Positions 22,889 to 32,093 of a DNA stretch of 36,044 nt are shown one piece after another (positions within the stretch are counted from its first letter, which is position 1; the number at the start of each line of letters is the position of its first letter). The stretch is from the NCBI GenBank assembly GCA_025363015.1, contig JANYEQ010000030.1, positions 1-36,044 on the forward strand, in the 5' to 3' direction. The stretch is from Bacteroidota bacterium. GTDB taxonomy: Bacteria > Bacteroidota > Bacteroidia > B-17B0 > Aurantibacillaceae. The notes under the pieces were generated by a model that worked only from the letters and a program-made list of their open reading frames with translations, ran no database searches and had not been told where the DNA came from. A program made the translations under genes and the position numbers.

Positions 22889-25336
22889 TTATTCATATAC
22901 ATAAATACGTTTTACGCGTGCCGAAACACTAGTTAGTACCTCGTAGTTTATAGTATTTAAGGCGGAGGCTAATTGGTTTATTTGTTGCGTGGTTTCAAAA
23001 ATTAGTACTTCATCGCCTTCGTTACAATTAATGGTTGTAACATCAATCATACACATATCCATACAAATATTACCAATAGTTTTACAAAAATGCCCATTAA
23101 TGTAAACACCGTGTTTACCATTGCCTAATTGTCGGCTAAAGCCATCGGCATAGCCAATGGGTATAACAGCAATGGTGGTATTGTTTATAATTTTACCATT
23201 TCGGTTATAGCCAATGGTATCATTTTTTGTAACGGTTTTAAGTTGACTAATTTTTGTTTTTAAAACACCTACATTTTCTAATTTAGTTTGTTCATTAGCA
23301 TTAACGCCAAGGCCATACATACCAATGCCTAAGCGCACCATATTAAAATGCGCCTGTTTAAAGCGAGAGATAGCACCCGAATTACAAATATGTTTTAAAG
23401 TGGTGTAGCCAATTTTATTTTCGAGCTGAGAACTTATTTTAGTAAATAAATTTATTTGCTCATTTGTAAACTCATCTAGGCTTTGGTTATCACTAGCAGC
23501 TAAATGCGAAAAAATAGAAACAATTTTTAGTTGCTGTTGTTTTTTTAATTCGGTAATTAATTGCTCAATATTTTTTTCTTCAAAGCCTAAACGGTGCATA
23601 CCAGTATCTATTTTAATATGCACAGGATAAGGCTCTGTAATGCCCAATTGGTCAAGTTTTAAAATAAATTCGTGTAATAATTTAAAGCTGTAAATTTCGG
23701 GCTCTAAATTAAAATTAATAATATCATCTAGCGAATCGCTTTCGGGGCTCATGACCATTATTGGTAAATTAACTTGCGATTTACGGAGTTCTACACCCTC
23801 ATCGGCATAAGCAACGGCTAAATAGTTAATGCCAATATGCTCTAATGTTTTTGCAATTTCAATACTGCCACTACCATAACCCATGGCTTTTACCATTGCC
23901 ATAATTTGTGTATTAGGCTGTAAAAGGTCTTTAAAATAATTTACATTATTGGTTAATTTATTTAAATTAACTTCAAAAACAGTATCGTGGCTTTTTTGTT
24001 GTAGTAATCTACTAATGTTTTCAAAACCAAAGCTACGCGCACCTTTCAGTAAAATTGTAGCATCACTAAATTGATGATTGATAATTGGTAATTGATGAAT
24101 GAAAGAGTTAGTATCAGAATAAAAAAGAGAATTGTTTTTGAACAAAAATTTATTTATAGAAATATTTTTACCAATGCCAACTACTAAATCTATTTTATTT
24201 TGTTGAAATAAATGGGCTAATTGAGTGTATAAATTTGTGGCTAAAACACCCGATTGTTCAATATCTGAAATAATAACTATTTTTTTTGAACGGCGATTTT
24301 GTTGTTGTAAAAAATTTAAAGCAATGGTAAGCGAATCTAAATCAGAATTGTAATAATCGTTTATTAGTAATGAATTATTAATGCCATTTTTAATTTCTAA
24401 ACGTAAGGCAATGGCTTGTAATTGATTTAATTTTTGTTGAATACTGGTTTCATTAAATCCTAATTGAAAAAGTACGGCAATGCAAGTAGAATAATTAGCA
24501 ATAGATGCAGCATCGGTAAATTTTAATTGAAAGCTGTAATCTTTAGTATTGCTTTTTATAAGTAAACAGTTTTTAGAAATACTAAATTGTAAATTAGCAT
24601 CGGCTTGTTGCGAAACAACTATTGTTTTTAAAAGTAGAGTAGGGGGGATATTATTTTTAGTTAGTCCATTAACAATTATGTTTTTACAATGTTGAACTAA
24701 TTTTAATTTTTCTTCAATTTTTTGTTCTTTATTTTTAAAACCTTCATCATGAGCCGAACCAATAGATGTAATAATTCCCAGCGTGGGTTGAATAATGTTT
24801 TGCAAATTTTCCATTTCGTTGGGTTGCGAAATACCAGCTTCAAAAATAGCTAAGGTATGTGAGGAATTTAAATTTAAAACACTTAGTGGCACACCAATTT
24901 GCGAATTAAAACTTTTTGGGCTACGGCAAATACTAAAATCAGATTTTAATAATTGATACAGCCACTCTTTAACCACCGTTTTGCCATTACTACCCGTAAT
25001 GCCAATTACTGGAATATTGAATTGTAAACGGTGATAGGCAGCTAATGTTTGTAAACTATTTAACGAATTTTTTGTAACAATAAATGTTATATTTTTGTTA
25101 GTGATGAATGTATAATCAAATTCATTTTCGGTAATTATAAAACTGTTAACCCCTTTTTTAATTAAATTGTTAATGTAATTATGGCCGTTGTTACGATTGG
25201 TTTTAATGGCAATAAACACCGTATTTTCAGCACTTTGAAGCGCACGGCTATCGGTTAAAAATAAACTGGGTTTATAATCATTTGTACCAACAAATGTGCT
25301 ATTGGTAATTTGTGCTATTTGATTTAGGGTATACAA
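22889..25336 (-). CDS. murF: Bifunctional MurF ligase / alanine racemase
   Basis: An 815-residue fusion. The N-terminal half (about 1-447) is UDP-MurNAc-tripeptide:D-Ala-D-Ala ligase, with the TDSR segment (28-31), the ATP loop GITGSNGKT (112-120), FEAGISQPNEM (165-175) and NDYYNSD (326-332). The C-terminal half (about 450-815) is a PLP-dependent alanine racemase, with the Schiff-base Lys483 in MVKAMGYGSGS (481-491), HIKIDTGMHRLGF, MVRLGIGMYGLG and PIGYADGFSRQL. The fusion supplies D-Ala and ligates D-Ala-D-Ala for peptidoglycan, and is well known in Bacteroidota. The start is TTG, producing the usual MYTLNQIA start. Residues 412-423 are encoded by simple-repeat-like DNA. Confidence 0.96.
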   Translation of the reverse strand: MYTLNQIAQITNSTFVGTNDYKPSLFLTDSRALQSAENTVFIAIKTNRNNGHNYINNLIKKGVNSFIITENEFDYTFITNKNITFIVTKNSLNSLQTLAAYHRLQFNIPVIGITGSNGKTVVKEWLYQLLKSDFSICRSPKSFNSQIGVPLSVLNLNSSHTLAIFEAGISQPNEMENLQNIIQPTLGIITSIGSAHDEGFKNKEQKIEEKLKLVQHCKNIIVNGLTKNNIPPTLLLKTIVVSQQADANLQFSISKNCLLIKSNTKDYSFQLKFTDAASIANYSTCIAVLFQLGFNETSIQQKLNQLQAIALRLEIKNGINNSLLINDYYNSDLDSLTIALNFLQQQNRRSKKIVIISDIEQSGVLATNLYTQLAHLFQQNKIDLVVGIGKNISINKFLFKNNSLFYSDTNSFIHQLPIINHQFSDATILLKGARSFGFENISRLLQQKSHDTVFEVNLNKLTNNVNYFKDLLQPNTQIMAMVKAMGYGSGSIEIAKTLEHIGINYLAVAYADEGVELRKSQVNLPIMVMSPESDSLDDIINFNLEPEIYSFKLLHEFILKLDQLGITEPYPVHIKIDTGMHRLGFEEKNIEQLITELKKQQQLKIVSIFSHLAASDNQSLDEFTNEQINLFTKISSQLENKIGYTTLKHICNSGAISRFKQAHFNMVRLGIGMYGLGVNANEQTKLENVGVLKTKISQLKTVTKNDTIGYNRNGKIINNTTIAVIPIGYADGFSRQLGNGKHGVYINGHFCKTIGNICMDMCMIDVTTINCNEGDEVLIFETTQQINQLASALNTINYEVLTSVSARVKRIYVYE

Positions 25337-26038: not shown

Positions 26039-27004
26039 TTATGCTTCCATTAAATCGTGTACTACTCCCATTGCCGCAAATTTATCAATGCGTTGGCTTA
26101 TGCGGTCTTGAGGTTTTAATTTATTTAATGTTTTCAAGTGTTTTAATATTTCGGTTTTTACAATGGCAAACATTTCTTCTTGATTACGGTGAGCACCGCC
26201 AACGGGCTCATTTATCACACCATCAATTAAGCCATTGTTATTCATATCTATAGATGTGAGTTTTAAGGCTTCGGCAGCTTGTTCTTTAAAATTCCAGCTA
26301 CGCCACAAAATACTACTGCAACTCTCGGGGCTAATTACCGAATACCAGGTGTTTTCTAACATTAATACCTTATCGCCAATACCAATGCCTAAAGCACCAC
26401 CACTGGCGCCCTCACCAATAATTATGCAAATTACGGGCACTTTAAGTTGAGTCATTTCTAGTAAGTTACGAGCTATGGCTTCGCCCTGGCCACGTTCTTC
26501 GGCTTCTAAGCCGGGGTATGCGCCTGGGGTATCAATAAATGTTACAATGGGTTTGTTAAACTTTTCGGCTAATTTCATTAAGCGTAAGGCTTTGCGGTAA
26601 CCTTCGGGGTTAGCCATACCAAACCTACGTATTTGGCGCATTTTGGTGTTAATACCTTTTTGTTGCCCAATAAACATTACGGTTTGTCCATCAATTTCGC
26701 CAAAACCGCCTACCATGGCTTTATCATCGCCTACGGTACGGTCGCCATGCAGCTCAATAAATGTTTTGTTACTTACATAATCTATATAAGCCAGGGTATA
26801 GGGCCTATCAGGGTGGCGACTAACTTGTACGCGCTGCCAAGGCGTTAAGTTGGTATATAATTCTTTTGTTTTTTGAAGTATAGTAGCTTCCAATTCTTTA
26901 ACTTTATCGTCGAGATTAACTTTACTTTTAACGCTTACGTCTTTAAGTTTGTCTAATTCGGTTTCTAAATCTTGAATTGGTTTCTCAAAATCTAAGTATG
27001 TCAT
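26039..27004 (-). CDS. accA: Acetyl-CoA carboxylase carboxyltransferase subunit alpha
   Basis: The alpha subunit of the carboxyltransferase that makes malonyl-CoA for fatty acid synthesis; it works with AccD in a heterotetramer. The 321 residues include an N-terminal helical coiled region (about 1-55), [13 protein letters not shown], the [16 protein letters not shown] segment, [26 protein letters not shown] and the oxyanion-forming [15 protein letters not shown]. It heads the accA-efp unit. An upstream -7 box is present at 27026-27033. The start is an ATG. The partner accD is not in the window. Confidence 0.97.
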
Positions 27005-27025
27005 TTTTTGTAATTAGTTAGGGTG

Positions 27026-27033
27026 CAAAGATA
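27026..27033 (-). promoter_or_regulatory. accA: -7 box (TATCTTTG) for accA
   Basis: On the minus strand TATCTTTG matches TAnnTTTG, 21 bp before the accA ATG. No TTG is found at the expected -33 distance, so this is only a partial promoter match. Confidence 0.4.
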
Positions 27034-27107
27034 TAATTTTTTGAAAAATATAGATTTTATATATCTTACTGATTGCTAGATTATTATGTAATTTGTTAAT
27101 AACAAAA

Positions 27108-27135
27108 AAGCAAGAAATAGGCGTATTTCTTGCTT
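27108..27135 (-). terminator. Intrinsic terminator after the GIN-domain gene
   Basis: An 11-bp stem (27108-27118 with 27125-27135, AAGCAAGAAAT / ATTTCTTGCTT) and a 6-nt loop, followed on the minus strand by TTTTTTG. It is about 25 bp beyond the stop of the gene ending at 27161. Confidence 0.82.
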
Positions 27136-27160
27136 AAAATTTAAATAAATTGTTTTGCGG

Positions 27161-28612
27161 TTAAAACGGAATTAATCTAATTCCAACAGCAAAAGGGTAT
27201 AATTGTGCGCCTTGATTTGCTTTAAAAAGCGATGTTAAACTATATTCGGCAAATACGGTTACATTTTTATAGCCAATATTTACGTGTGCTTTTGCGCCAA
27301 AGGGACTTAGGTTATAATTATCTTTTTTAATTTTGGTAATATCAAAGTTTTTTTGCTCTAACTCTTGTTTGGTTCGTGAAGTAATTAAATACTGTGCAAT
27401 AACACCCATTGCAATATGAAACGATTTATTGGGATTATTACTGGTATTAAACTCTAATAATAAAGGCACTTGTAAATAAGCACAACGTAGTTTGTTTTTT
27501 TTGTAAGTGTAGGTATTTGTTGTATCAATGGTGCCCCAGGTAAAGCTACTATCGGCATTAAGGTTGGTTTTATTATTAAATGAGTAGGAGTGAAAATCGA
27601 TACCAAAACCGGTTACAATTTTTACGTTATTTTTATAAATATTAAACTGTCGTTCGATTAAATTTAATTGAAAATTAAAGCTGCGAGAATAATTTAAATC
27701 CATAAAATTATATTGTTTATCAAGGGTTAACGAATTATTATAGTTTAAATAACCATTAACGCCCATCGAAAAACCGTGCCAGTGCTTAAAGTCATCAGTA
27801 TCTATACTGTTATACTTTTTAATCGTATCGTTATTACCGTTGGCTATATTTATAACAATTATTTTTTTATTTTTTAAGTTAAAGGTAGTTGTATCGCCAT
27901 TATTTGCAATGTTTGAACCTTTTTTTGAAGTGCCATCATCTAGTATTTTTGTAATGGAAGAAGAGGTAGAAGCTTTAGCAACAATATCAGTTACATTGCC
28001 TTTTACTTTTATGGCACTTGCGCCATTTGCATTTGCTATTAATTTATCGGTTACAAAAATTTTAGCGGTAGAAGCACCTGTAGCGGTAACATTTGCATTT
28101 TTAGAAGTGAGGTTATACGATTTTAAGGTTGATGCGCCAGATATATTTGCTGATAAATTGTTAGTTGTACCACTTAAATTTAAGTCGCTTGCGCCACTCT
28201 GAGTTATTTCGGTATAATTATTTTGTAATACTAATTTAGCGTCGCTTGAGCCCGAGATGGTAATACTAAGACTGTCTTTTGATAAAGTTGTAGTAGATTT
28301 AATACTTGATGAGCCACTTATTTCTATATCGTTTAAACTATTGTTACTTACATTTACAATAATTGGCGAGTAGGTATTGCCAGTTGTATAAATATATAAG
28401 GTGCCATTTTCAATCTTTGTAAAAAGATTATCAAATTGTTTGGCAATTGTGTTTACTTCTAATTTTAAAGTATCGGAGTTGGTGTAAACAACATCTGTTG
28501 CACCCGATATTTTAATTTTAGTAAAGTTTGTAATTGTGCGCTTTTGAATTTCTTGCGCTTTAGCAAAAAAGCTTGCAGTTAAAAGACTTATTGAAAGGAT
28601 TATGGTTTTCAT
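27161..28612 (-). CDS. GIN-domain (DUF2807) protein with C-terminal outer-membrane barrel
   Basis: A 483-residue exported protein. The signal peptide ends at about AKAQ (17-20). Residues about 25-215 form a right-handed beta-helix-like head GIN domain (DUF2807), with repeated SG(S/A)S and DLNLSG-type turns (EISGSSSIKS, ITISGSSDAKL, TQSGASDLNLSG, ATGASTAKI). After a linker, residues about 265-483 look like a small outer-membrane barrel (GVNGYLNYN, LRCAYLQVPLLLEF, and a terminal strand ending in RLIPF). Head-GIN proteins are suspected adhesins or envelope-stress products; function is not settled. Its ECF-type promoter closely matches the one before the neighbouring sigma operon, so it is probably a target of that sigma factor. 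Confidence 0.88.
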   Translation of the reverse strand: MKTIILSISLLTASFFAKAQEIQKRTITNFTKIKISGATDVVYTNSDTLKLEVNTIAKQFDNLFTKIENGTLYIYTTGNTYSPIIVNVSNNSLNDIEISGSSSIKSTTTLSKDSLSITISGSSDAKLVLQNNYTEITQSGASDLNLSGTTNNLSANISGASTLKSYNLTSKNANVTATGASTAKIFVTDKLIANANGASAIKVKGNVTDIVAKASTSSSITKILDDGTSKKGSNIANNGDTTTFNLKNKKIIVINIANGNNDTIKKYNSIDTDDFKHWHGFSMGVNGYLNYNNSLTLDKQYNFMDLNYSRSFNFQLNLIERQFNIYKNNVKIVTGFGIDFHSYSFNNKTNLNADSSFTWGTIDTTNTYTYKKNKLRCAYLQVPLLLEFNTSNNPNKSFHIAMGVIAQYLITSRTKQELEQKNFDITKIKKDNYNLSPFGAKAHVNIGYKNVTVFAEYSLTSLFKANQGAQLYPFAVGIRLIPF

Positions 28613-28647
28613 ATTAAAATACTATTTGTTTGTTTATTTAAGGGTAA

Positions 28648-28674
28648 GACGGATATAACTATTAAAAAGTTACA
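28648..28674 (-). promoter_or_regulatory. ECF-type promoter of the GIN-domain gene
   Basis: On the minus strand TGTAAC (28674-28669), a 17-bp spacer and CGTC (28651-28648). Flanks match the sigma operon promoter: an upstream TTTTCAATGCG and a downstream CTTAAATAA. The predicted leader is about 30 bases. Confidence 0.75.
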
Positions 28675-28691
28675 GCGCATTGAAAATAAAT

Positions 28692-29945
28692 TTATTTTTT
28701 TTCAATGCTAATAGAATTAAACGCTAATAGATAATTGTTTGTAGATTTTTCGTTGCCTTTAACAGCTTTTATACCAAGCCCATTTAATTGTTTAGCAATT
28801 GTAACAGCACGTTTCCAAAAATTATTTTTTTGTGATGGCGGAGTAGGGCTAAGCTCATCATTATCTTCTTCAGAGGCTAATAAGGTTGTTTGCACAGTAG
28901 GTTCGGTTACTAAATTTGTTGCTGTTGCTATAGTATTTAAGCTTATAGTATTTGAAACAACAGCATTAGTAGTATTTGTATTTATGATACTATTAGTATC
29001 TTTTTTAAACACAGTACTGTTTAAGTTAGTATTTGCAATTGGGCTTGTATTAATATTATTTACAAGAGTTATTTTTAAAGAATTATTTTTAAATGGTTTA
29101 ATTGCAGTTGTTGTATTATTGTTTGTTGCCATTAAATTTTTATTAATAGGATTGTTAATTAGCGTTAAGGAGTCAACTACTTTTTTTGTTTTACTAACGT
29201 TAATGTATTTATTGTTTGGGTTAACAGCAATTTTAGTTGGATTATTGGTAGTTGAATTAAAATAAAAATTTAATACAAAACCTAAGCTTATCAACAATAA
29301 TAAACCTGCAGCAATAGCGCTAATGGTATTAAAATTAAATAGTGCAATTACTTTTGCATGTTTTTTAAGTTCGTTTTTAGTTGGATAAATAACAGATGAA
29401 TCTGTAATTAATTTTGTTTTTTGTAATTGAGTAACTTCTGTTTGTAAAACTATATTTGTTTTTAATTCGGTTTCAAAATTTATTTTTTCGATTTCTGTCA
29501 AATTATTTTCAATATAATTTAAGGCAATATTATTTAGAATTAAATCATTTTCGGTTTTAAGTAAATTGCTTTTATTTAGCGTTAAATTTTGCTTTATAAA
29601 TTTTAAATTTGTTTTTTTATAAAGCTCAACTTCTTTTGCTAATGGTGTATTTGTAGTTAATTTTAATTCAAAATTTAATTTATCTTGTTTTGATAAATTT
29701 CCCTCTATGTAATTTAATAATTCTTCATTATAAATATCTTCGGGTGTTTTAAATAGGCTTGTTTTATTTTCAAAATTTAATGAACTAGCCTTAAAACTGG
29801 GCAATTCATCCGCATAAAAATCAATATTTAATTGAGGGTTAAGTAAAGCAAAGGTTTTTAACTCCACCAAATCATCCGTGTTTAAATTACCATCAAAGTA
29901 ATCTAACAAAAAGGCTTCGTAATTATGTAAGTTTATTTTTTGCAT
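28692..29945 (-). CDS. Anti-sigma-like membrane protein with triplicated N-terminal domain
   Basis: A 417-residue single-pass protein. The cytoplasmic half carries three related helical units at about 9-43, 74-117 and 138-180, each opening with a [LI]-x-x-Y-[FI]-[ED]-x-N-L core (LLDYFDGNL, LLNYIEGNL, ALNYIENNL) and continuing into a helix with Leu/Phe-Glu pattern. This resembles the anti-sigma N-terminal domain (YxxGxLs type) without zinc-binding Cys/His. TM is at about 205-227. The periplasmic part is Asn/Thr-rich and disordered, with a short conserved-looking end (FWKRAVTIAKQLNGLGIKAV, residues about 375-394). The start overlaps the stop of the ECF sigma gene as TAATG, so the two are coupled and it is the likely anti-sigma factor. 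Confidence 0.85.
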   Translation of the reverse strand: MQKINLHNYEAFLLDYFDGNLNTDDLVELKTFALLNPQLNIDFYADELPSFKASSLNFENKTSLFKTPEDIYNEELLNYIEGNLSKQDKLNFELKLTTNTPLAKEVELYKKTNLKFIKQNLTLNKSNLLKTENDLILNNIALNYIENNLTEIEKINFETELKTNIVLQTEVTQLQKTKLITDSSVIYPTKNELKKHAKVIALFNFNTISAIAAGLLLLISLGFVLNFYFNSTTNNPTKIAVNPNNKYINVSKTKKVVDSLTLINNPINKNLMATNNNTTTAIKPFKNNSLKITLVNNINTSPIANTNLNSTVFKKDTNSIINTNTTNAVVSNTISLNTIATATNLVTEPTVQTTLLASEEDNDELSPTPPSQKNNFWKRAVTIAKQLNGLGIKAVKGNEKSTNNYLLAFNSISIEKK

Positions 29946-30430
29946 TAAATAACGGCTTCTATTTTACCAATGTAATTTTTTAAAAAGGTACGTGCTCTAA
30001 AAATATAAACCTTTACTTGACTTTCGGTTAAGCTGGTAATTTCTCCAATTTCATTATAATCATAACCTTCGTAATCGCGAAGCAATAAAACTGTTTTTTG
30101 TATTTCGGGAAGCAATTCTAAGCCAATATTTAAAATTTCTTTTAAATCGGTATATTGATTGGTATGGCTATGTTGATTAAAGTTTACCTCACTAAAATTT
30201 GCTTTTTTTGCATTTTTTCGAGTTGTGTCAACTAAGGTATGGTAAGCGGCGGTAAATAAGTACGATTTGGCTTTAATGGCTTCAATTGTGTCTACCTTTC
30301 GCCACATTTTTTCAAAAGTATCTTGTACAATATCTTTGGCTTGGTCTTTATCTTTAATGTGTTTTATAATAAAGCGATACACGCCATCGGCATGATTTTC
30401 AACACAGGAGTTATAATCGGATAAAGTCAA
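29945..30430 (-). CDS. ECF sigma factor
   Basis: A 161-residue extracytoplasmic-function sigma factor with region 2 at about 13-75 (VYRFIIKHIKDKDQAKDIVQDTFEKMW, then YLFTAAYHTLVD) and region 4 at about 98-152 (LLPEIQKTVLLLRDYEGYDYNEIGEI, then the ESQVKVYIFRARTFLK helix). The start is TTG; there is no ATG close to region 2. A TGTAAC-N16-CGTC promoter stands directly upstream, the classic ECF type, so the gene is probably autoregulated. It is followed by a coupled anti-sigma-like gene and then a GIN-domain gene with a matching promoter. Confidence 0.94.
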   Translation of the reverse strand: MTLSDYNSCVENHADGVYRFIIKHIKDKDQAKDIVQDTFEKMWRKVDTIEAIKAKSYLFTAAYHTLVDTTRKNAKKANFSEVNFNQHSHTNQYTDLKEILNIGLELLPEIQKTVLLLRDYEGYDYNEIGEITSLTESQVKVYIFRARTFLKNYIGKIEAVI

Positions 30431-30445
30431 CTTATTTAAGCGTAT

Positions 30446-30471
30446 GACGAAGTTAGAACAAAAAAGTTACA
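30446..30471 (-). promoter_or_regulatory. ECF-type promoter of the sigma operon (autoregulatory)
   Basis: On the minus strand TGTAAC (30471-30466), 16-bp spacer, CGTC (30449-30446). The run beginning at CGTC reads CGTCATACGCTTAAATAA, against CGTCTTACCCTTAAATAA at the GIN gene promoter. The TTG start codon at 30430 is 16 bp from the -10 element. A related upstream element, CGTATTGAAAA on the plus strand, is present at 30506-30516. Confidence 0.78.
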
Positions 30472-30557
30472 GGCGTATTAAAAATAGTACTAAAAATTAT
30501 TGTAACGTATTGAAAATTAAAACGATAAAAATAAAATTTTGTATAAATAGTATCCCA

Positions 30558-31118
30558 TTAAAGATGAACGTTAATGTTTTTATAATCATCTAACGCTTTT
30601 ATTTCGTTAATAATTTTAGCATTCCATTCGCGCTGTTTTTCGGCATTTGTACTCCCGTCTGTATCGTTATCATATATATCTTGGTACTCATCCATTTGTT
30701 TATCTATTATATCGTACAAGGCGTACAACTTTTGTTCTAACTCATTGTACGAGGTATATTTTACATTTTTACACAGTTTACGCAACTTTCGTGCGTATAA
30801 TTCTACAATATCAAAATGTTTTTGTTCGTGAGCTAGCACGGTTTTATCAATCCAATTTTTATTTTTCCAACTACTATAATAAAAAAATACTGCTTTTATA
30901 ACTACGTTGTAGCCTGTATTGGTTTTATCAATGTCTAAATAAATATCGTAGCTGGTACTGGCAACAGCCATGCGTTTTTCTGGCTTCCCTTTAAAGTCGT
31001 CCCACGTTAAAGGTTTATTATCTTGCCATAAAATATAATCGGTTTGACTTTTATATAAAGCTATGTTTAGGCAAAACACAACCAATAAAATTGTTTTTTT
31101 ATAATTAAAATAAAACAT
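30558..31118 (-). CDS. DUF922-family secreted putative metalloprotease
   Basis: A 186-residue protein with an N-terminal hydrophobic segment (about 9-22) that is likely a signal peptide. It has the DUF922 hallmarks: WQDNKPLTWDDFKG (31-44), a central strand VVIKAVFFYYSSW and HEQKHFD (97-103), which supplies a HExxH-like zinc site (His97, Glu98, His101). The family is annotated as predicted zinc-dependent proteases, but activity is mostly inferred. It stands alone between the ECF operon and the divergent transporter. The start is an ATG. Confidence 0.87.
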   Translation of the reverse strand: MFYFNYKKTILLVVFCLNIALYKSQTDYILWQDNKPLTWDDFKGKPEKRMAVASTSYDIYLDIDKTNTGYNVVIKAVFFYYSSWKNKNWIDKTVLAHEQKHFDIVELYARKLRKLCKNVKYTSYNELEQKLYALYDIIDKQMDEYQDIYDNDTDGSTNAEKQREWNAKIINEIKALDDYKNINVHL

Positions 31119-31214
31119 AAATACAAAACTTTGCTTGTATTAAAGTTATTATTTTTATCTCATATTTGAAATAATTTATAATGGTTATTGTTTTAATTTA
31201 TAATTTATTCACAA

Positions 31215-32093
31215 ATGTTTTTTATTATTCTTACCATATTATTTAGTGTTTTTTTATTAATTGTATTTAAGTTATTTCAAAAATATACTGTAAATACCTT
31301 TGTAGCAATAGTTATAAATTATATAACTGCGGTAATTACAGGCATTTTATTTTTAAACACAAATTATAATTTTAACACGGTATTTAATTCTAATTGGCTT
31401 GCAATGTGCGTTCCGTTAGGTTTTTTATTTGTTAGTATTTTTTATTTAATTTCTCAAACGGCTCAGCGTATCAGTATATCTACGGCCAGTATTGCTAATA
31501 AAATGAGTGTGGCGATGCCTGTTTTATTTTCGGTTATTTTTTTAAACCAACACTTATCTTTTTTAAAAATTATGGGTATTGGTTTGGCATTAGTAGCCGT
31601 ATATTTTGCTACTAAAACACCCAAAATCCAAAAAACAAATACTAATTTATTGTGGTTACCCATAGCTGTTTTTATTGGTAGTGGTTTAATAGATATTAGT
31701 ATTAACGCTACAAATGCGTATTATATTAAATCGCCAAACGATAGTGCTTTATTTAGTATTACCACTTTTTTAACAGCATTTTGTATAGGTAGTTTAGTTA
31801 TAATGTATCAACTTTTTATTAGCAAACAACAAACAGTAACTACTATTTTTAAATTAAAAAACATAGTGGGAGGTATAGTTTTAGGCATACCCAATTACTT
31901 TAGTATTTATTTTATGTTTAAGGCACTAGATGCAAATGTGCTGAGTAGCGCACAATTATTTCCAATATTTAATTTAAGTAATGTTGTACTATCGGCCATT
32001 GTTGCTTGGCTAATGTTTAAAGAAAAACTATCCACCGTTAATATTATAGGTATTGCTTTGGCAGTACTTTCTATTGTTTTAATTTCGTATTAA
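31215..32093 (+). CDS. DMT-superfamily (EamA-like) membrane transporter
   Basis: A 292-residue integral membrane protein with about ten predicted helices, in two EamA-like halves. The first half includes ASIANKMSVAMPVLFSVIFL and the second PNYFSIYFMFKALDANVLSSAQLFPIFNLSNVVLSAIVAWLMFKEKLS, the typical family helix with a Pro. The C-terminus is the usual LSTVNIIGIALAVLSIVLIS helix. DMT transporters move metabolites or drugs; the substrate is unknown here. It precedes the M42-like peptidase by 17 bp and is probably cotranscribed. Confidence 0.9.
   Translation: MFFIILTILFSVFLLIVFKLFQKYTVNTFVAIVINYITAVITGILFLNTNYNFNTVFNSNWLAMCVPLGFLFVSIFYLISQTAQRISISTASIANKMSVAMPVLFSVIFLNQHLSFLKIMGIGLALVAVYFATKTPKIQKTNTNLLWLPIAVFIGSGLIDISINATNAYYIKSPNDSALFSITTFLTAFCIGSLVIMYQLFISKQQTVTTIFKLKNIVGGIVLGIPNYFSIYFMFKALDANVLSSAQLFPIFNLSNVVLSAIVAWLMFKEKLSTVNIIGIALAVLSIVLISY

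Follow-up and report, generated by a model that had tools for sequence, protein, structure and literature searches.

An ECF sigma factor of Bacteroidota that very probably activates its own operon and the gene for a neighbouring outer-membrane protein

In a computational analysis of a 36,044-nucleotide stretch of Bacteroidota DNA (hereafter the window), we found an ECF sigma factor that, judging from its promoter sequences, very probably switches on its own operon together with a neighbouring outer-membrane protein, an arrangement that we also saw in many related bacteria. The minus strand carries three successive genes: an ECF-type sigma-70 factor of 161 aa with a TTG start (29945-30430), a 417-aa anti-sigma candidate (28692-29945), and an exported 483-aa protein that joins a GIN domain to an outer-membrane beta-barrel (27161-28612). 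The sigma factor shows the short ECF layout in Pfam, with Sigma70_r2 at residues 10-74 and Sigma70_r4_2 at residues 104-150, and scored 68 bits against NCBIfam TIGR02937 (cut-off 42.9). Its best-scoring named sigma model was NF058625, the PG0214/GFO_1088 family of ECF sigmas, at 105.7 bits, which is below the cut-off of 130 and leaves it outside that family. The exported protein belongs to the GIN family by its DUF2807 match (residues 29-206; 116 bits against a gathering score of 24.2) and carries OMP_b-brl_2 at residues 279-462, and its predicted structure gave Foldseek matches to the solved GIN-type proteins 4opw, 3pet, and 3lyc.

ECF promoters have an AAC-type -35 element and a CGTC-type -10 element, and a promoter of this type, with a 16-17 bp spacer, stands before the sigma gene itself. 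On the minus strand, the candidate sigma-operon promoter (30446-30471) is made up of TGTAAC (30471-30466), N16, and CGTC (30449-30446), and the candidate GIN/barrel promoter (28648-28674) of TGTAAC (28674-28669), N17, and CGTC (28651-28648), the latter in the extended form CGTCTTA. A sequence-only reading of this DNA had placed both sites here, on this strand, and had put the gene starts at 30430 for sigma (the TTG) and 28612 for GIN/barrel; all of these positions proved correct. The best explanation overall, and one we hold to be highly probable on the sequence comparisons below, is that the ECF sigma factor encoded at 29945-30430 recognises both sites as promoters. The window contains exactly two copies of TGTAAC-N16/17-CGTC, a number that none of 100 shuffled windows reached. 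Since the window (32% G+C) and the regions upstream of both promoters (77% A+T) are A/T-rich, runs of T and A come cheaply, and a chance resemblance is conceivable on these grounds. Such an accident is extremely improbable, however, given that only 0.09 copies are expected in the window, that GTAAC and CGTC recur across species with variable spacers, and that the extended motif was found in each of the 33 sigma-bearing genomes of the genus and in none of its 7 sigma-less ones.

We aligned 32 sigma promoters and 28 downstream promoters from the genus, where the core was fixed by the search pattern and the spacer and flanks were free. Conserved throughout were an A/T-rich stretch, (C)TGTAACTTTT, GTAAC-N16/17-CGTC, CGTCTTA(C), and an A 12 positions beyond the C of CGTC (+12). 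The A/T-rich stretch covers about -20 to -10 relative to the G of GTAAC, a T directly precedes GTAAC in 29 of 32 sigma and 27 of 28 downstream promoters, the four positions next to that T are mostly T, and CGTC is mostly followed by TTA. The A at +12 is present in 28 of 32 sigma promoters and in all 28 downstream ones. Spacer length is N16 in 31 of the 32 sigma promoters and is split among the downstream promoters (N17 in 16, N16 in 12); spacer sequence varies in both sets, and GTAAC and CGTC recur. The sigma promoter of the window is itself unusual in having CGTCATAC in place of CGTCTTAC, the form seen in most others. The conserved A at +12 is the probable transcription start, which would put the predicted +1 of the sigma promoter at the A at 30437, with a 7-nt leader to the TTG, and that of the GIN/barrel promoter at the A at 28639, with a 27-nt leader to the ATG.

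The same alignment bears on how far the two sites of the window resemble each other. The flanking strings reported in the sequence-only reading are literally there at both sites, with the upstream string offset by one base relative to TGTAAC. Its description of conservation over about 55 bp was too strong and overstates what selection keeps, since the parts conserved across the genus are shorter and the upstream string is kept there only as A/T-richness. Between the two sites, the first 17 downstream bases include 12 matches (about 0.0006 among random pairs from the window), and upstream 6 of 12 ungapped positions match, which is not unusual (0.10 among such pairs). Because the upstream flanks are no more alike than those of random pairs, we rejected the idea that the two sites are a duplicated promoter.

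A clear sigma orthologue (E below 1e-45) is present in 33 of 40 genus genomes, and the next sigma matches stand at 1e-15 or weaker, bar one fragment of an orthologue already counted. GTAAC-N16/17-CGTC precedes sigma in 32 of these 33 loci, ending 9-45 nt from the sigma start; the locus where no motif was found before sigma, in G017, holds the most diverged orthologue of the genus (52% identity). In a wider set consisting of the best 80 of 123 GTDB loci, some of them from Sunxiuqinia strains, the motif lies within 120 bp of sigma in 71. Twenty of these loci are the same contigs as genus genomes already counted, each with the motif before sigma; the remaining 60 include 59 with upstream DNA, and GTAAC-N15-18-CGTC was found within 120 bp of sigma in 51 of them and was absent in eight. 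Scoring up to 12 candidates in each of 296 Bacteroidota genomes sampled across the phylum, we found an orthologue at E below 1e-25 in at least 13 of them, the window's own genome included; by this count, the sigma module is widespread but far from universal in Bacteroidota. All 12 distant orthologues (37-53% identity) have GTAAC followed by CG at 15-18 bases under a relaxed pattern, and their -10 reads CGTC exactly in three, CGTA in seven, CGTT in one, and CGAT in one. Since every distant member keeps GTAAC and the -10 varies, autoregulation through a GTAAC-type -35 looks old, with a -10 that has drifted.

The motif likewise precedes all 32 GIN/barrel starts examined in the genus, namely 27 of 27 in sigma loci (27 of the 33 loci gave a GIN/barrel match) and five on other contigs. 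Together, the counts before sigma and before GIN/barrel support the original proposal of autoregulation plus control of the GIN/barrel gene, and the upstream comparison in relatives that it had suggested shows the motif recurring before both genes with variable spacers. In G008, G019, and G020, the GIN/barrel gene and its motif lie well inside a contig that has no sigma gene, and the gene is thus truly apart from sigma. G016 and G034 were rejected as further unlinked cases because they look like assembly breaks in which the genes may adjoin: a C-terminal piece of sigma lies at the end of the GIN contig in G016, and sigma runs to the contig end in G034. In G010, the motif lies near a contig end, and the C-terminal part of GIN is on another contig.

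Alternatively, only the sigma site might work, with the GIN copy a by-product and GIN mainly read through from the sigma operon. Read-through is possible because a consensus scan found no terminator-like hairpin between anti-sigma and GIN; the scan returned four terminator-like sites in 26900-31300 versus 1.8 in shuffles, among them a hairpin with a 12-pair stem and a T-rich tail on the minus strand just past the GIN/barrel stop codon (27108-27135). Also in line with read-through, in three of the wider loci (L197, L210, and L213) the anti-sigma is immediately followed by a GIN-type gene, and there is no second motif. However, the GIN site stays with its gene in genus loci with 1.1-3.8 kb between anti-sigma and motif, it is kept in the three genomes where GIN is far from sigma, and GIN paralogues elsewhere in G007, G022, and G030 carry it too. 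As the upstream flanks of the two sites are also not close copies, we regard this alternative as very unlikely and take the second site to be a probable promoter in its own right.

A second motif behind the anti-sigma was found in 50 of the 75 loci with a delimitable anti-sigma (from the best 80 of 123). The gene behind it encodes a GIN/barrel protein, a barrel without GIN (L172, L181, L182, and L203, on which Pfam was run), or GIN without a barrel (L150), so the partner protein is variable in its parts; at three loci, no gene was found behind the second motif. The other 25 of the 75 had no second motif; three of them are the loci with a GIN-type gene named above, and others have unrelated neighbours.

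Across the genus, the extended form GTAAC-N16/17-CGTCTTA gave 110 matches, spread over all 33 genomes with the sigma and missing from the 7 without it, a comparison that is uncorrected for relatedness and in which the absences from three sigma-less genomes are weak because these are 60-73% complete. The reversed control gave 50 matches in sigma-bearing and 2 in sigma-less genomes. The 110 comprise 30 sigma promoters, 31 GIN/barrel promoters, 3 sites before GIN paralogues, and 46 others. Because sigma promoters sit in the total, we looked at these 46 separately: they occur in 22 of 33 sigma-bearing versus 0 of 7 sigma-less genomes (Fisher p 0.002, relatedness uncorrected) and are not above the reversed control (50) in number. 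For this reason, match numbers alone were rejected as proof of extra regulon members, and what supports the extra sites, as far as sequence goes, is their position and recurrence. Of the 45 examined, 39 have an ATG frame of 90 codons or more no further than 170 nt away; the six that do not include the GIN-side site close to a contig end in G010. A strict form, GTAACTTTT-N12/13-CGTC, gave 92 matches versus 37 for its reversed control in sigma-bearing genomes and 1 versus 4 in sigma-less ones. TTA, which is outside the strict query, extends 23 of 32 gene-preceding strict matches versus 1 of 14 others (Fisher p 6e-5), in a test that covered 46 of the 93 strict matches with known promoters excluded.

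In the sigma-less genomes, including the three incomplete ones, the target gene too was mostly not found: six of the seven gave no GIN/barrel gene, and in the seventh, G012, about 107-115 codons of it survive, with neither sigma nor anti-sigma in the 9 kb examined. In a DUF5686 tree of 30 genomes, the four sigma-less genomes do not group together, and sigma absence needs at least three changes relative to motif-bearing rows, a level that shuffled labels likewise reach in 142 of 500 trials.

It is also conceivable that another ECF sigma, or several with overlapping specificity, reads these promoters. Each genus genome has 2-18 sigma matches, orthologue included, and in Flavobacterium psychrophilum a CGT-box is possibly common to several ECF sigmas, according to the accessible part of PMC9723704. 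Yet neither the motif nor WAAC-N15-18-CGTC was found before any of 40 other ECF genes (hand-picked from the upper non-orthologous matches, some skipped, with three from sigma-less genomes), and the motif stands at this sigma's own gene in most sampled loci. Sigma-less genomes moreover keep ECF-like matches, but the extended motif is in none of the seven. We therefore consider it unlikely that a different ECF sigma is responsible and favour the sigma encoded beside the two sites.

The motif searches used exact patterns and so will have missed weaker sites. In the window's genome (3.3 Mb), GTAAC-N16/17-CGTC has 18 copies versus 36 for the reversed control, and 7 of the 18 fall within a 41-bp tandem repeat. 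The 11 non-repeat sites include three that are intergenic, 13-35 nt before a same-strand gene, and seven inside reading frames; the remaining one, C53:39552, lies where we could make out no clear gene. A motif that is common genome-wide with no link to this sigma, which would have spoken against the sequence-only reading, was looked for and not found, with 3 of the 11 non-repeat sites in a gap before a gene. Treating every match as part of the regulon was rejected, since 7 of the 12 copies of TGTAAC-N16/17-CGTC are in the 41-bp tandem repeat and others lie within genes. As a side observation on the controls, a reversed pattern that outnumbers the forward one in this genome (36 versus 18, or 11 without the repeat) may overstate chance.

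The three copies in gaps before genes precede sigma, GIN/barrel, and a CarboxypepD_reg plus DUF5686 protein (C126). In a comparison covering 30 of the 40 genus genomes, one of them without upstream DNA, DUF5686 orthologues keep the motif in 11 of 25 testable sigma-bearing genomes, with CGTT or CGTA in two more, and in 0 of 4 sigma-less genomes, a difference that alone is not significant. The regulon gains at least a third candidate member, the DUF5686 protein, which is of outer-membrane type.

In relatives, the 39 genes behind extra matches were clustered by BLAST, and Pfam, run on one or two members of each cluster, supplied the family names: CarboxypepD_reg_2 (10), UppS (5), serine hydrolases (PF00144; 5), ABC ATPases (4, named via L289, a strict-motif match outside the count), and DUF5686 (3), followed by three pairs and six singles. 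Behind UppS in both G001 and G002 comes a BamA-type gene that encodes five POTRA domains; G002 additionally has two OmpH (Skp) genes after this pair. One further match in G002 precedes a parvulin-type PPIase gene whose SurA_N match is below the cut-off. Because UppS-BamA, OmpH, and SurA-like genes are outer-membrane assembly genes, the system likely serves outer-membrane homeostasis, although in the genome of the window the exact motif was not seen at any UppS, BamA, OmpH, or SurA-like gene. RpoE of enterobacteria also controls BamA-, UppS-, OmpH-, and SurA-type functions, and the motif in some relatives precedes just such a UppS-BamA-OmpH set and a SurA-like gene. As in RpoE-RseA-type operons of enterobacteria, an ECF sigma and a membrane anti-sigma candidate share one operon here, and the promoter elements are of the AAC type (-35) and the CGTC type (-10). 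The likely role of the sigma is comparable to that of RpoE. Unlike in RpoE-RseA, the anti-sigma candidate has no Pfam match, contains tandem helical repeats, and has a long disordered tail, and a separate promoter would serve the GIN/barrel protein.

The 417-aa protein has no Pfam or NCBIfam match, and its assignment draws on an AlphaFold2 model (overall pLDDT 63.7) and an alignment to the anti-sigma factor RslA. The model has three helical repeats (about 9-35, 68-112, and 140-177), one membrane-type helix (residues 205-229), a stretch of about 135 aa (residues 237-370) with pLDDT below 50 nearly throughout that we read as disordered, and a C-terminal module formed by a helix (376-389) and three strands (395-416). 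The second repeat (residues 68-122) aligned with RslA over 54 residues at rmsd 3.6 with a VIA-align Z of 5.5, where Z under 8 can reflect a common arrangement; the next rows stood at Z 3.3. This comparison covered only Foldseek's own candidates, for which Foldseek alone gave E 4.5 or worse. A profile search against the PDB matched only neurexin, over the membrane-helix region (E 0.0096), which we judged spurious. Conservation is highest at the N-terminus (NYEAFLLD-type). The C-terminal module (residues 376-417, at 28695-28820 on the minus strand; delimited by aligned C-termini, with model pLDDT about 64-69) is also well conserved within the genus and can still be recognised, in a different form, in other groups. 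On this model, we infer that the protein is a tethered inner-membrane anti-sigma. No clear long fusion to a barrel was found when the phylum sample was searched with the anti-sigma alignment; one weak match fell within an 895-codon frame.

In the mechanism that we propose, one promoter would express sigma and anti-sigma together, giving positive autoregulation with a built-in reset, a second would express the exported GIN/barrel protein alone, and the third genomic copy would probably express the DUF5686 outer-membrane-type protein. At rest, the RslA-like helical repeats of the anti-sigma may hold sigma at the inner membrane; an envelope signal sensed by its long periplasmic tail would release sigma, and outer-membrane and surface proteins would then be made. 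More tentatively, we can imagine a two-piece trans-envelope sensor, a possible but rather doubtful arrangement in which the conserved tip of the disordered tether docks on the co-regulated barrel and faulty assembly frees sigma. Freed sigma would then raise production of the barrel and of outer-membrane biogenesis factors. Docking of the C-terminal module on the barrel is our hypothesis for how the two pieces would meet.

The Das/Dma systems of Bacteroides offer a comparison. There, as described in the accessible text of PMC13088901, an ECF21 sigma is paired with a dual membrane-spanning anti-sigma that has its own C-terminal beta-barrel, together with an N-terminal sigma-binding region, one membrane helix, and a long disordered tether. 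As far as that text describes Dma, the system in the window resembles it in belonging to Bacteroidota and in having a sigma-adjacent anti-sigma with one membrane helix (205-229) and a long disordered tether, and differs in that the barrel is not in the same polypeptide but is a separate gene (27161-28612) with its own promoter. The window may hold a two-piece version of Dma systems. In Flavobacterium psychrophilum, the accessible text of PMC9723704 describes a promoter motif, SM6, with a CGT-box as -10, whose targets include an ECF/anti-sigma operon and an ABC-type ATPase; those listed are mainly T9SS parts, band-7 proteins, and a rhamnose gene, and, unlike here, no GIN/barrel or DUF5686 gene is among them. 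The same text assigns an envelope-stress set that includes Skp to sigma-54.

In kind, an ECF operon that regulates itself and an adjacent target is nothing unusual. Distinctive here are the base-level definition of the promoter, the likely outer-membrane regulon in relatives, and the unusual combination of a tethered anti-sigma candidate with a separate barrel. Many Bacteroidota ECF sigmas have no known promoter or regulon; in the present case, the promoter can be defined base by base, likely start included, and the target list is short enough for direct testing. B. thetaiotaomicron, for example, has 50 ECF sigmas, many of unknown function, according to the accessible text of PMC12596196. If the outer-membrane biogenesis targets of the relatives are real, this sigma is a candidate driver of an outer-membrane response under ECF control in the phylum, of which we found none in the literature searched, with most subscription papers outside reach. 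The two-piece sensor, if true, would be a Bacteroidota counterpart of the RpoE response and, in its logic, a split relative of the Dma proteins. Literature searches found nothing relevant for the motif sequence, no experiment on this system, and no paper linking the GIN domain with ECF; for DUF2807 with ECF, the search returned an iron-response study with a DUF2807 gene in a table.

In distant orthologues of the ECF sigma gene (L410, L411, L413-L417 and L419, all loci of related genomes), we found that TGTAAC is retained 5' of the gene and that CGTC is replaced by CGTA in seven loci and by CGTT in one. It is possible that this -10 change occurred together with change in the sigma factor itself. 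Since tandemly repeated units of ~41 bp contain TGTAACCCGAAAATATAATTTGGCGTC or close variants, they account for seven false matches to the promoter pattern (TGTAAC-N16/17-CGTC); in the window's own genome (G000), this repeat lies at G000:C13:54544-54734 (L001) and G000:C17:22182-22331 (L005).

The candidate anti-sigma protein (window 28692-29945) is predicted to carry three mutually similar helical repeats in tandem. Their copy number varies among relatives, with, for example, one repeat fewer in the anti-sigma of L142 and additional sequence in those of L144 and L152. Behind the second promoter, 3' of the anti-sigma gene, four related loci (L172, L181, L182 and L203) encode a barrel protein without a DUF2807 match, which makes the GIN head optional. 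In G012, a genome without the sigma gene, a short leftover of the GIN/barrel C-terminus is found (L403:2387-2707), perhaps representing a target in decay once its regulator was lost.

Window 22889-25336 combines a Mur ligase middle domain and alanine racemase in a single frame, fusing two cell-wall enzymes. In G003, another genome, a motif-bearing ABC ATPase gene is followed by a gene (L407:974-4672) whose 1233-aa product combines ABC-2 membrane and M1 peptidase domains.
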